From the NCBI RefSeq assembly GCF_001040845.1, contig NZ_CP011941.1, positions 1,649,993-1,713,992 of the forward strand: a stretch of 64,000 nt of DNA, read 5' to 3'. The notes under the pieces were generated by a model. It was not told the origin of the DNA. It did no database searches and saw only the letters and a program-made list of their open reading frames with translations. The stretch is from Synechococcus sp. WH 8020 (GTDB lineage: Bacteria > Cyanobacteriota > Cyanobacteriia > PCC-6307 > Cyanobiaceae). Positions 171 through 49,269 of this stretch are shown one piece after another. Every line of letters starts with the position of its first letter. Within the stretch, counting starts at the first letter, position 1. The translations under genes were made by a program, and so were the position numbers.

Positions 171-311
171 GTGGTTTTGATTCGATGGCTTCAGGCTGGC
201 CGGCGCACTGAGGAAACTGTTCCGGTGGCCATGGCCCGCCATCGGCGGAATGAGCTTGAAGCCCAAGGAGCGGTTGTGTACTGGAGCGAACGACTAGTCA
301 ACGCCTTCTAG
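171..311 (+). CDS. 46-aa conserved small protein (copy 1)
   Basis: Short frame opening with GTG after an AAGGAC-like ribosome site at about 159-164. It is supported by a close second copy at 23974-24120. Both share VLIRWL, AGRRTEETVP, MARHRRN and AQGAVVYWSERL and differ mainly at the C-terminus. No signal peptide or membrane helix is visible; the centre is rich in Arg and Glu. The function is unknown. Conservation of protein sequence over nucleotide sequence between the copies is the main reason to call it a gene. Confidence 0.6.
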   Translation: MVLIRWLQAGRRTEETVPVAMARHRRNELEAQGAVVYWSERLVNAF

Positions 312-18751: not shown

Positions 18752-19079
18752 GGGAACGACCGACAGCGCCTCAAACCCCGTTGCTTGTTTGAGATCGAAC
18801 TGCGTCCCCTTCTGGGGACCAACGTCTCTTAACTATAGGGGACTGAACACGAATCGAACAGTCATCAACCGAATGCCCGATGGCGTAACAACCGATCCTT
18901 TGTCACGCCACAGGGCTCCGGGCCATCACAGCCAACATCAGTTAGAGCAAGGCGGATCAAAAGCAAAGCCCAATGAGGTCAAAGCGAAGCGAGAGAGGTT
19001 CTGGACTGCAGGCACACACAATCTGTGAAACGTGAGCTGATCCCTGAGATACTGGGTAATGAAGGAGGGCGCACCTCTC

Positions 19080-23529: not shown

Positions 23530-23853
23530 AGATTTTCTTACATCTCCATCAAGGATAGGAACTCAAAGACGTTCCGCAAATCAATGAAAGCGCCAACAGA
23601 GGACACATCTCATGAGCAATTTTATAGAGCGGTGATCTAACCCGAAGCATGTCGCCTGCGCCATGACCTCAGTTAAACTATGCGCAGCAATTCATGAGCC
23701 GGTCAACTACAACATACCAGATACATTCACTCCAAATAATTACAATTAGCCTCTCAGGTCAATCTGCCAAGAGCCTCTCAAGTGATTCAGATAAAAGATG
23801 CTGTATAGGGCTGCAAGCACCCATCCATGTAGACCAAAGAGCCAATGAATTTT

Positions 23854-23970
23854 TGAGGTCTTGCGAGTATCTGTGTTTTTGAAGACAGCGAACCTTGCAT
23901 CGAGCCACTCTGAGCAGGAGCCAACGTTGAGGGGTAGTGGCTTAAAGCTCACACCAAAGACAGAGGATTC
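23854..23970 (+). repeat. about 115-bp dispersed repeat, copy A
   Basis: Shares GAGGTCTTGCG, CAGCGAACC, GAGCCA, GGAGCCAACG, GGGG..AGTGG, CTCACACCA and AGACAGAGGATT with copies B (29690-29824) and C (42145-42260). In this copy the 3' end runs directly into the start of the 48-aa gene at 23974, so it may serve as that gene's leader. Confidence 0.6.
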
Positions 23971-23973
23971 ATC

Positions 23974-24120
23974 ATGTCCATGGTTTTGATTCGATGGCTT
24001 GAGGCTGGCCGACGCACTGAGGAAACCGTTCCGATCGCCATGGCCCGCCACAGGCGGAATGACCTAGAAGCTCAAGGAGCGGTTGTGTATTGGAGTGAAC
24101 GACTCGAGGACGGCTGCTAA
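23974..24120 (+). CDS. 48-aa conserved small protein (copy 2)
   Basis: Paralogue of 171-311: MSMVLIRWLEAGRRTEETVP, then MARHRRND, AQGAVVYWSERLEDGC. ATG start, two residues longer at the N-terminus. It sits immediately after dispersed repeat copy A. Preservation of the frame in both copies supports a real gene; the function is unknown. Confidence 0.6.
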   Translation: MSMVLIRWLEAGRRTEETVPIAMARHRRNDLEAQGAVVYWSERLEDGC

Positions 24121-27989: not shown

Positions 27990-28454
27990 GGGAACGAACG
28001 ACAGCGCCTCAAACCCCGTTGCTTGCTTGAGATCGAACTGCGTCCCTTTTGGGGGACCAACGTCTTTTAACAATACGGCAAGTTCTTGTATCGCAGAGAG
28101 TAGGAACCGAATCAGGGCTGGCGAAACAACCGAACTCAATCCCAATCAGAGCTCCGATCGAGGGCCAGACCGGCCGGGAAGTCGACAAGAACTGGATCAG
28201 GAACCATGGCTGAGATCCGCGGCAATGGTCCGATCACTTGGGCGTCTACCGGAAACATTGGAAGCGGAACCAGAGCAATTAACAGCCGCATCGCTTGATC
28301 AAGGATGGGACTGATGCAATCAGCTGGAATGAGGTGATCGGCATGAACTGACGGCTTCAAGTTCAATCAAACCATCGCCCGCCTTAACTGATATGAACAA
28401 CATCTCATTGCCCCTTGAGATCCCAAACGGAAATGAGGACACAGTTCTCAAGTA

Positions 28455-28712: not shown

Positions 28713-29689
28713 AAAAGGGGCGAAAACAAGAATAAGCGCAGTGCCGAAAGATCTCGGCTTGGCCGCTTCCGACACTTGCCTGCTGAACGTTTGTCCCATC
28801 GATGAACAAGCTCGGGGGCGCCTAAACAAGCCAGCCTGATCTAGTCGCAGGTGGTTTTGGTGCAGCTCCGCGGTGAGGGCCAAAGCCCCGAAAAGCATCT
28901 AGACCGCCAGCCATATCGCGATGCATCGATGTCGCATCAGTCGTGCTCTACAACCGAGCTTGAGCACACCATTCCCACTATTGGTGGTTTTGCCATGGAA
29001 GGCAATGCGCGATTTGACCGATGGCAAGAAGCGTTCAACGGATAGAAAATGTGTGCATCGAGATCGGAGGAGCTAATGACAGTCGACACTCCACCAGCGC
29101 AGATCGCAGAAGCAGACTGACTTTCTGGCCCCTGCTCCAACAGTCTCAACAATGACCTGGGTTGGTCGATTGGTAGGTACACATCAGATACGTCACGCCA
29201 TCGACGCTCCGCTTGCACCGCCCTAGGTGCCCTAGGAGAAACAGACCCAACACCTAGAGCAAATGGCCCCAGGACGCCTCTAGCCAGATGCTTCGACCCC
29301 TCATCTTTTCCGTAGTGATGGGTTGATCCATGCATAAACGAGCGAGTTAGGCCGTCTTTCCACTCGGAAGGGCGGCCTTCCTCTTGGCTTGTTGCGCTGG
29401 GGCTCTGTCACGTTGTTGGAGTGGAGCTCTTACCCTCTTCATCAGGGTGTGATGCTCAACGCCGAGTGGATTGAAGGCAACGATCTGCTCTGGATCCACG
29501 CGCTGAAAAGGTCTAGTGGAAAGGAGAAGGACACAATCAATATTGGTGCCAGGACACCTCCTGCAGAGGCTTGCTGACCTCAGATCGGTTGAAGGGCACT
29601 GATGAAGAAACGGCTGTGGGAATTGATTGCTGCCCCGTTTAGCGAGTCAAGCCGTACCAGCGAACTGAGGGTCCGGCGCATGGAGGGTT

Positions 29690-29824
29690 TGAGGTCTTGC
29701 GGCAAACTGCTCTTCGAAGGTCAGCAAACCAGTCATGGAGCCATCTTGAAAAGGAGCCAACGCTGGGGAGCAGTGGTTCAACCTCACACACCAAGGCGGA
29801 GGACTGGAGAACCTCTGCTTTTTT
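29690..29824 (+). repeat. dispersed repeat copy B with its own terminator
   Basis: Matches copies A and C: GAGGTCTTGCG, AAGGTCAGC, GAGCCATCTTGAAA, GCCAACGCTGGGGAGCAGTG, GTTCAACCTCACA. It ends in a hairpin GCGGAGG-(9 nt)-CCTCTGC with six T (29796-29824), so a short RNA from this unit would terminate cleanly. Confidence 0.65.
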
Positions 29825-39513: not shown

Positions 39514-39529
39514 TTCCTGGCTTCTTGTT

Positions 39530-39632
39530 AGGAGTGTTGCCTAGTTTCCACTCCGTGAAGAAGCCCTCCTCACGATTCAATCATCCCTCAGAAATTCCAC
39601 TGAGCAAGGCCCTTTTGCCTGAGTTCATTGTT
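39530..39632. repeat. dispersed repeat, related to 21555-21662
   Basis: Same block order as the earlier copy (GTTGCC, CTCCGTGAAGA, CCCTCCTCA, GAGTTCATTG). The leftward frame has EEGFFTEWKLGN here and EEGLFTE then stop in the other copy. Confidence 0.45.
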
Positions 39633-41849: not shown

Positions 41850-42070
41850 GCGATGCTCGATGACGTTGTGACCCATGCCAAATCGATCAACTCACAACTG
41901 CATCATGAGCCGAAAACTTGCGGTGGAATTTTGCCAATTGCTCAGGTCATCCGTTGATTCAATGCTGAATCCATCTGCCGAGTCATATTTGGCAAGACCC
42001 TCTCAGCCTTCACTCAGGCGCAATGCGTTCTAAACAAGTGAAAATTGAGACGTCGAAAGCAAGACACCTT

Positions 42071-42098
42071 GGGAGGAGTTAGCACCCTCCCATTTTTA
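42071..42098 (+). terminator. orphan Rho-independent terminator
   Basis: GGGAGG-(agttagca)-CCCTCCC hairpin then ATTTTTATG. The nearest upstream gene on this strand is far away. Confidence 0.65.
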
Positions 42099-42144
42099 TG
42101 ACCGTCAAACCGTCGTTAAAGATTTGCGGGATTGCGTCTAACTG

Positions 42145-42260
42145 CGGGTTCAAGGTCAGCGAACAATCACCCGAGCCATCTTGAAAGTGAGCCAACGCTG
42201 GGGAGCAGTGGTTCAAACTCACACCACCAAGACAGAGGATTAAACCCCTCTGTTTTTTAT
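42145..42260 (+). repeat. dispersed repeat copy C with terminator
   Basis: Contains AAGGTCAGCGAAC, GAGCCATCTTGAAAG, GAGCCAACGCTGGGGAGCAG, TGGTTCAAACTCACACCA and AGACAGAGGATT, as in copies A and B. Ends with hairpin AGAGG-(8)-CCTCT and six T (42234-42258). Confidence 0.65.
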
Positions 42261-42356
42261 GGCCTTGAACGAAGATGAGTATGTATCACTAGGGACAGAG
42301 ACGCACTCACACGCTTGTATTGGCGAGGGTCAGGATGTTGGGAGGCATCCTATGTT

Positions 42357-42394
42357 GAACGGTCGGCTGCAGGGGCGGGCGTCCGTTCTTTTTT
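42357..42394 (+). terminator. orphan Rho-independent terminator
   Basis: GAACGG...CCGTTC hairpin followed by six T and ATGGCTCAACG. The trailing ATGGCTCAAC matches the sequence after the 29916-29947 terminator. Confidence 0.55.
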
Positions 42395-42462
42395 ATGGCT
42401 CAACGGCATCACCGCACACAGGTATCGCCTGTCTTCGGCTGCCATCGGCCTGTCGCCATGAA

Positions 42463-42488
42463 AAAGGCCCCCTTGCGCGGAGGCCTTT
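42463..42488. terminator. bidirectional terminator-like hairpin
   Basis: AAAGGCC-(cccttgcgcgga)-GGCCTTT inverted repeat, with A-run on the left and T-rich right side. Confidence 0.5.
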
Positions 42489-42604
42489 CCTTTGCGGATC
42501 CTGCTCAAAGGTCGCTTCAATTAACTTAATACCCTGGTAACGGTTTGTAAAGCCAGCGTTTTCAGCGGGTTCCTCCCCGAGCAATTGGCGCTGTTGTGCT
42601 GCTC

Positions 42605-48607: not shown

Positions 48608-48633
48608 AAAAGCGGACCCTTGAGATCCGCTGT
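48608..48633 (-). terminator. terminator of ssrA
   Basis: Minus strand AGCGGATCTC-AAG-GGTCCGCT hairpin then TTTTTTA. Confidence 0.75.
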
Positions 48634-48639
48634 CCTGGA

Positions 48640-48922
48640 ATGGTTTAAGGGGGCATTCCACCCCCACGAGTCACTTGGGTGATAAGGCTGACTTCACCCC
48701 ATCTCCCTTAAAAGGGTCAGGCAGCAACAGGGGCTGCTTGACGGGAGAAACGTACGATGTTGTTCGCAGTTACGGGATTTGCTCTGACCGAGCAGGCTTC
48801 AGTCACCCTCCTTATGCCCCGTCGAAACCATTGCAGCCCCGAAGGGAGAATGGAGCTGAGCGGAATCGAACCGCTGTCCGAAACACCGGTGTGGACCACC
48901 TAGTCCGTTCAAGAACGGACTT
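48640..48922 (-). ncRNA. ssrA: circularly permuted two-piece tmRNA
   Basis: On the minus strand the acceptor piece comes first (T-arm AGCGGTTCGATTCCGCT and acceptor CAGCTCC, ending at 48852). A short spacer follows, then the coding piece beginning GGGGCTGCAATGG at 48840. CAGCTCC pairs with GGGGCTG. The tag frame starts at GCG, reads ANNIVRFSRQAAPVAA and stops at 48717-48719. A pseudoknot-like GTGGGGG...CCCCC follows, and a perfect inverted repeat (48902-48921) marks the 5' end. It rescues stalled ribosomes and tags proteins. Permuted, two-piece tmRNA is known in this cyanobacterial lineage. Confidence 0.92.
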
Positions 48923-48924
48923 TT

Positions 48925-49269
48925 TCATTCTGGCATCAAGAGCGCAGCAATGCTCGACCAAGCGATCCTCAGATGCAACAAGTTATTGCACAAAACCTTG
49001 AGAGGACTATCAAAAAGGCACTGAAACCACTTCATAGATCCCTGCTGAATCGGCACGAACGCCTGCTTCCCTCTTAAGGAATAAGGAACGTTTAACTGAT
49101 TACCACCAACCACCAACGAAGAAGCTTTGGACATGGAAACTTGCCAGCGACTAGAACCAATAGTGACCTCCCCTCGAATCACCTTGGCCACCTTCACGGA
49201 ATCACCATAAAAAACAAACAAAAAGCCAATAATGAACTTTATCGAGCCCGGCAACGCAGCAACAAACAA
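48925..49269 (-). CDS. possible 114-aa hypothetical protein
   Basis: MFVAALPGSIKFIIGFLFVF helix, then VAKVIRGEVTIGSSRWQVS and RGKQAFVPIQQGSMKWFQCL. It ends next to the ssrA 5' end. It could be a small membrane protein, or just upstream DNA; codon signal is weak. Confidence 0.3.
   Translation of the reverse strand: MFVAALPGSIKFIIGFLFVFYGDSVKVAKVIRGEVTIGSSRWQVSMSKASSLVVGGNQLNVPYSLRGKQAFVPIQQGSMKWFQCLFDSPLKVLCNNLLHLRIAWSSIAALLMPE

Follow-up and report, generated by a model that had tools for sequence, protein, structure and literature searches.

The DNA analysed here (the window) is a stretch of 64,000 nucleotides from the single-contig, 2.66 Mb genome of Synechococcus sp. WH 8020 (G000:C1:1649993-1713992). 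It contains three of the five copies (c1, c2 and c3) of a dispersed element that is probably a young small-RNA gene family, one copy of which has turned into an mRNA leader. By the established view small-RNA genes come and go quickly, and the intermediate steps are rarely caught. The family described here has multiplied recently in two species, and among its members are a hybrid and a copy that is fused to a protein gene arisen by duplication.

Copies of the element

The initial annotation of the window had described a three-copy dispersed repeat of roughly 115 bp. All three copies are present, and their MAFFT alignment spans about 120-140 bases. The boundaries given for the units were only partly right: the copies lie where they had been placed, but the one said to start at 42145 begins near 42121, so that its left edge was drawn about 24 bases short. 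The two sequence blocks described as shared are both present, with the copy at 29690 reading CTCACACACCA. A BLAST search of the whole genome with window positions 42145-42260 as query returned 13 matches at E <= 10, including five with E-values under 1e-7. For the remaining copies in the window the E-values were 1.1e-21 and 7.9e-8, and the search turned up two additional copies beyond the window, at G000:C1:1538717-1538828 (- strand, E 2.8e-35) and G000:C1:545113-545198 (+ strand, E 5.9e-16). The E-values of the four other copies, from 8e-8 to 5e-40, exclude chance. Copies were also scored with a covariance model, R2, which superseded a model based on an automatic structure (R1). The element is 119-142 nt long, and its five copies are as follows.

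23852..23970, + strand: copy c1, leader of a 48-aa gene (R2, 95.1 bits)
29686..29824, + strand: copy c2, with ortholog d2 in genome G020 (R2, 153.8 bits)
42121..42258, + strand: copy c3, the reported copy with its 5' edge extended (R2, 143.2 bits)
G000:C1:1538717-1538854, - strand: copy c4 (BLAST)
G000:C1:545063-545199, + strand: copy c5 (R2)

Distribution and orthologs

The phylogenetic distribution of the element is narrow. R2 finds matches in 2 of 197 relatives, the WH 8020 genome included, and nothing in the other 195 at E <= 0.1 under strict filters by which weak matches may be lost; a search with the core pattern likewise gives matches in 2 of 31 genomes of the genus. The second genome, G020, carries copies d1, d2 and d5, which are orthologous by their flanks to c1, c2 and c5, and a degenerate copy at 1324759-1324889 (R2, 31.1 bits); no ortholog of c3 or c4 was seen in it. 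Weak R2 matches directly 3' of c5 (24.0 bits) and d5 (22.4 bits) suggest partial tandem copies. BLAST matches in genomes G145 and G054 were dropped as copies, being merely 24-base fragments. An exact 23-mer from the element is absent from a separate collection of genome contigs and present in G020, which is therefore probably outside that collection. A phage origin was considered and rejected: of the 25 records from a distant BLAST search, the 20 listed match 18-22% of the query and none has an E-value better than 0.1, and viral contigs gave no hit in two pattern scans.

Identity over the element is 87% for c1/d1, 91% for c2/d2, 74% for c5/d5 and 87% for c3/c4, and it falls to 79% for c2/c3, 78% for c2/c5 and 71% for c1/c2. 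The 165 bases just 5' of c2 have no BLAST match at d2, and conservation between the two loci thus starts at the 5' edge of the element, which favors a small RNA. The same sharp edge speaks against a rather unlikely alternative, in which the copies are an immobile repeat, or debris left by segmental duplication, and play no role as RNA, their terminators being kept just to end neighboring transcripts. This alternative draws on the distribution in 2 of 197 genomes, which also counts against the small-RNA reading, and on the ~400 bases, in two blocks and with neighboring units included, that c3 and c4 have in common. Shared sequence also extends past the element in c2, c5 and d5, and part of the conservation is therefore plain segmental duplication.

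Anatomy of the element

The element has a hairpin, GAGCCA..GCU-GGGG-AGC..UGGYUC, and its best-conserved stretch begins with the first GAGCCA, takes in GAGCCAACGCTGGGGAGCAGTGG and TCACAC and ends with the 5' arm of the terminator. UCACAC is invariant in all eight copies of the two genomes. The initial annotation had two copies ending in a hairpin and T-run, and these ends are borne out at 42 kb and 29.7 kb by sequence and by stems in the folds. The corresponding features of c2 and c3 are listed below.

29754..29779, + strand: GAGCCA..GCTGGGGAGC..TGGTTC hairpin of c2, GGGG at 29765-29768 (sequence, pair counts)
29796..29824, + strand: terminator-like stem and T-run of c2 (sequence, fold)
42189..42214, + strand: GAGCCA..GCTGGGGAGC..TGGTTC hairpin of c3, GGGG at 42200-42203 (sequence, fold, pair counts)
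42232..42258, + strand: terminator-like stem and T-run of c3 (sequence, fold)

The hairpin at 29754..29779 is absent from the lowest-energy fold of c2 alone. The element has two GAGCCA repeats, either of which can pair with UGGYUC, and the inner GCU-GGGG-AGC tip is compatible with both. With the first repeat 56 of 56 cells pair, with G-C, G-U and A-U pairs at the outer end; with the second, which is the choice of five of the eight lowest-energy folds, 47 of 48 do. GGGG forms the loop in only five of the eight copies, a point against the small-RNA reading; c4 has GGGA instead, and both c1 and d1 have GAGG.

A stem and T-run occupy the equivalent place in c2, c3, c4, c5 and d2, in keeping with the small-RNA reading. 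Four of the five WH 8020 copies thus have a terminator-like end, and c1 is without the terminator 3' arm and T-run. The base of the stem is A-U in c3 and c4 versus G-C in c2, d2, c5 and d5. Less favorable to a small RNA are the stems of c5 and d5, each with one mismatch beside the basal pair, and the T-run of d5, which is broken (CTTCTTCTTCTTGG). A consensus terminator scanner reported neither the c2 nor the c3 stem, probably because of a 9-nt loop in one and the overlap of stem and T-run in the other.

Tests of coding potential, structure and promoters

The element is not protein coding. Its variable columns are spread evenly over the codon phases (20, 21 and 19, out of 34 per phase), and every reading frame is interrupted or shifted in some of the eight copies, so that none stays open in the same register throughout; this lack of a conserved coding frame is as expected of a trans-acting small RNA.

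Over the whole structure 93.5% of 184 cells are paired, compared with 36-46% in controls with a slid partner strand, although the structure was picked on the same eight sequences and the pair count leans toward it. Pairing so far above the slid controls also argues against duplication debris. Relatives and compensatory changes had been named in advance as the places to look for support: the family does occur in one other genome of the 197, but compensatory changes are few, being two-sided in 3 of 25 pairs across the eight sequences, a count that 42 of 500 shuffles reach and that tells against the small-RNA reading. The two-sided changes amount to five cells, a number reached by none of the 500 shuffles. 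Folding energy passes a z-score of -2 in c4 alone (-3.18), the other seven copies ranging from -1.76 (d2) to 0.42; this unremarkable folding in seven of eight copies suits debris and is a further point against a small RNA, as is the outcome of a scan for sigma-70 consensus promoters, which covered the surroundings of c2 and c3 and found none.

The leader copy and the YWSERL gene

As had been reported, the copy at 23.9 kb leads straight into an ATG at 23974 that opens a 48-aa ORF. This ORF belongs to the YWSERL family (NF058615), of which the window contains two members.

23974..24120, + strand: second YWSERL copy, 48-aa ORF directly after c1 (NF058615, 85.1 bits, cut-off 50)
171..311, + strand: widespread YWSERL copy, 46-aa ORF with no element upstream (NF058615, 87.8 bits)

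The family occurs in 70 of the 197 relatives, with one match in each except for two in WH 8020 and two in G020, where d1 has the same layout as c1, the element lying ahead of an NF058615 gene. The widespread copy of G020 and psbA are divergently oriented and lie 198 bases apart. R2 finds no element around the widespread copies of WH 8020 and G020 (part of locus L056 being masked), and R1 likewise has no match at the 12 YWSERL loci searched in other genomes. Upstream of d1, at about 1306-1418 of locus L020, there is an insertion missing from the c1 locus; it contains a stretch that by eye resembles a degenerate 5' half of the element and ends in CCCTTTTTATG, and R2 reports nothing there.

Homology between the two WH 8020 paralogs begins within the start codon, indicating that the gene copy took over the place of the terminator loop and 3' arm. 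The junction reads ACAGAGGATTCATC-ATG in c1 and ACAGAGGGTTAATC-ATG in d1, and the former terminator stem arm, AGAGG, stands at Shine-Dalgarno distance before the YWSERL start in both. From its position this arm is plausibly the Shine-Dalgarno sequence of the gene, and it may work as its ribosome-binding site. The two copies with a GAGG loop are the same two that front the YWSERL gene.

The choice first offered between a family of small RNAs and a leader element therefore does not fall to one side: by layout both apply, since four of the five WH 8020 copies appear stand-alone and small-RNA-like and the fifth, c1, is physically a leader. A quite unlikely alternative is that the element is throughout a cis-acting leader or attenuator, which controls the small gene just 3' of it with termination as the switch. 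In its favor, c1 and d1 each lie as a leader directly before a conserved ORF, and the T-run of c3 is followed at once by an ATG and a 93-aa ORF. Against this, the sequences 3' of c2, c3, c4 and c5 differ and no common ORF follows the terminator-bearing copies, the ATGGC.. found after several neighboring T-runs is the end of a convergent gene on the opposite strand (..VEP-stop), and the widespread YWSERL copy does without the element.

Neighboring units

Copies c3 and c4 sit within arrays of terminator-ended units, and pieces of the c3 array are present in 9 of 31 genomes of the genus. Two of these units, B and C, recur.

42044..42098, + strand: unit B, terminator-ended, common to the c4 locus and other genomes of the genus (sequence)
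42274..42395, + strand: copy of unit C next to c3, with loop GTTGGGAGG rather than GGGG (R3, 98.0 bits)

Unit B combines a GCGAAAGCAAGAC-like sequence with a GGGAGG..CCTCCC stem and is also seen at loci L086, L087, L089, L090 and L093. Small ORFs on the opposite strand, at window 42393-42584 (-) and L093:1099-1350 (-), end (..VEP-stop) inside the T-run of the neighboring unit; genome G026 has an 83-aa version, and reverse-complementing this gene end gives the recurrent TTTTTTATGGCTCAAC. That convergent small genes extend into neighboring T-runs would also fit terminators kept merely to end transcripts, as supposed under duplication debris.

Unit C adjoins c3 and also lies near c4. Searches with its model, R3, give 31 matches (E <= 0.01), spread over 9 of the 31 genus genomes, and one further genome among the 197 relatives is matched at E <= 0.001. 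No Rfam family matches at the 12 related-unit loci searched. The unit covaries: in a set of 23 distinct units, taken from the 24 loci, out of 30, that have a match at E <= 1e-6, 91.5% of cells pair and 9 of 13 pairs have two-sided changes, in an alignment that was fitted to its model and hence leans toward the model structure. Two-sided cells number 38 against 10.4 in shuffles, and none of 500 shuffles reaches 38.

When a stem of at least 3 is required around the loop, 10 of the 23 units have a GGGG tetraloop, five a CCCC tetraloop and eight neither. Three of the five CCCC units (in G007, G019 and G020) have a CTGGGGAG-bearing unit immediately 3' of them, of which the one in G020 fails the stem rule. 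These tandem units, at G007:C1:2028140-2028392 (-), G019:C21:3254-3505 (+) and G020:C1:982743-982995 (-), each have a separate terminator, and their loops are complementary. In the WH 8020 genome 27389-27504 is a CCCC unit C, after which comes a stretch that by eye resembles a degenerate partner.

Relation of the element to unit C

Some members of unit C resemble the element in having a GGGG-tipped hairpin followed by an intrinsic terminator. Unit C differs in its own 5' block (ATGAGTATGTATCTCTA..GACA), in its terminator sequence, in its CCCC-loop members and in its distribution, 9 of 31 genus genomes compared with two for the element. On the element the best R3 match has 10.5 bits (E 0.3) and covers positions 18-116, short of full length, and R2 matches some unit C copies weakly over their full length (16.6 to 12.8 bits). 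The top non-element R2 matches in unit C loci (21 bits) do not coincide with copies of unit C, which counts against the small-RNA reading.

A profile of the element core was compared with 25 unit C bodies from which the terminators had been removed, with 5000 shuffles as control. Eight bodies score and 17 give nothing, the latter again counting against a small-RNA family. Among the scorers seven beat all of their own 200 shuffles and one is equalled by 2 of 200; just 41 of the 5000 shuffles score at all, the highest at 6.0, and five of the eight unit C scorers lie above this. The two are further linked by the degenerate G020 copy noted above, a hybrid locus in which the 5' half is element-like and the terminator is that of unit C (31.1 bits with R2, 20.9 bits with R3). 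From these sequence likenesses the element and unit C are taken as related modules rather than one family, and the resemblance of the hairpin core to a covarying family is a third argument against duplication debris.

Proposed mode of action

If the copies are small-RNA genes, each complete one would give a transcript of ~135-140 nt, composed in order of a variable 5' half, the GGGG-tipped hairpin (GCU-GGGG-AGC inside GAGCCA..UGGYUC), the CUCACAC-like stretch and an intrinsic terminator. This RNA would most likely act in trans, with its UGGGGAG loop exposed for base pairing. C-rich loops are the candidate partners, for instance the ACCCCCGUG loop found in the related RNAs of unit C, of which there is one in the WH 8020 genome. 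The proposed seed and partners follow from the exposure of the loop, from the complementary CCCC units and from the Yfr10/Yfr2 precedent in Prochlorococcus MED4 (PMC2518516). In c1 and d1 the terminator's distal half gave way to a copy of the YWSERL gene, which would make the element an mRNA leader and leaves the purine-rich 5' arm of the terminator at Shine-Dalgarno distance.

A more speculative version, for which the odds are low, makes the element the expanded, stand-alone G arm of a so far unreported small-RNA system of marine Synechococcus in two parts. Its RNAs would have GGGG and CCCC loops and would in some cases be encoded in tandem; their tips would kiss, and one RNA would titrate the other in the way that Yfr1/Yfr10 and Yfr2 do through other motifs. 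On this view c1 and d1 would represent a small-RNA gene on its way to becoming a leader that reuses its terminator arm as ribosome-binding site.

Comparison with known small RNAs

Among the top-ranked results of a literature search, mostly outside subscription journals, no paper on the element, unit C or the YWSERL protein was found, which leaves their absence from the literature unproven. A survey of the small RNAs of marine Synechococcus was reportedly made in 2012.

Several known RNAs are found in the window: a Cyano-1/Yfr2 RNA at 39515-39579 (-), a pair of Glutamine-II riboswitch matches less than 10 kb apart at 18770-18827 (-) and 28008-28065 (-), and a cyanobacterial tmRNA at 48626-48940 (-), where ARAGORN and two Rfam models overlap. 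No Rfam family matches at any element copy in the window. Like the element, the Yfr2-5 RNAs (RF01701, Cyano-1) are multi-copy, dispersed cyanobacterial small RNAs with a 3' terminator; the sequence of the element differs from theirs. RF01701 has eight matches in the WH 8020 genome, seven over the cut-off. None of the six window matches obtained at the gathering score falls at an element copy, nor did a relaxed search at c3 find one to this family.

The CUCACAC-like stretch is common to the element and the Yfr1/Yfr10 class, and it raises the possibility, a very improbable one, that the element is a member or relative of that class, acting through CUCACAC and pairing with Yfr2. The invariance of UCACAC is in its favor, as is the CCUCACAC of c2, c4 and d2, which complements UGUGAGG at the 5' end of the WH 8020 Yfr2 copies. 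On the other side, the UCCU part of ACUCCUCACAC is missing from all eight copies, and the CUCACAC-like stretch can pair with the 5' end of the element itself. In PMC6778093, replacement of UCCU in ACUCCUCACAC abolished binding to ppa. The exact ACUCCUCACAC motif occurs twice in the WH 8020 genome (447124 and 2518274), neither time at an element copy. Yfr1, as described in PMC2190773, is 54-69 nt long, with two stem-loops and the motif unpaired between hairpin and terminator; the element has neither this size nor this two-stem-loop form, being longer (119-142 nt), without the 11-nt ACUCCUCACAC and with a stretch that may be paired to its 5' end. Full-length duplex folding with Yfr2 (slice L062) discriminates poorly, as the Yfr1 positive control was equalled or beaten by 98 of 100 shuffles.

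A parallel to the small-RNA reading preferred here is in Prochlorococcus MED4, where Yfr10, Yfr12 and Yfr18 stand in tandem with Yfr2, Yfr4 and Yfr5 and have complementary exposed motifs (PMC2518516). The tandem CCCC and GGGG units resemble this arrangement; their motifs differ, and for unit C the pairing is a prediction. Pairing of GGGG with CCCC loops, if real, would give these Synechococcus another circuit of complementary small RNAs beside that of Yfr1 and Yfr2.
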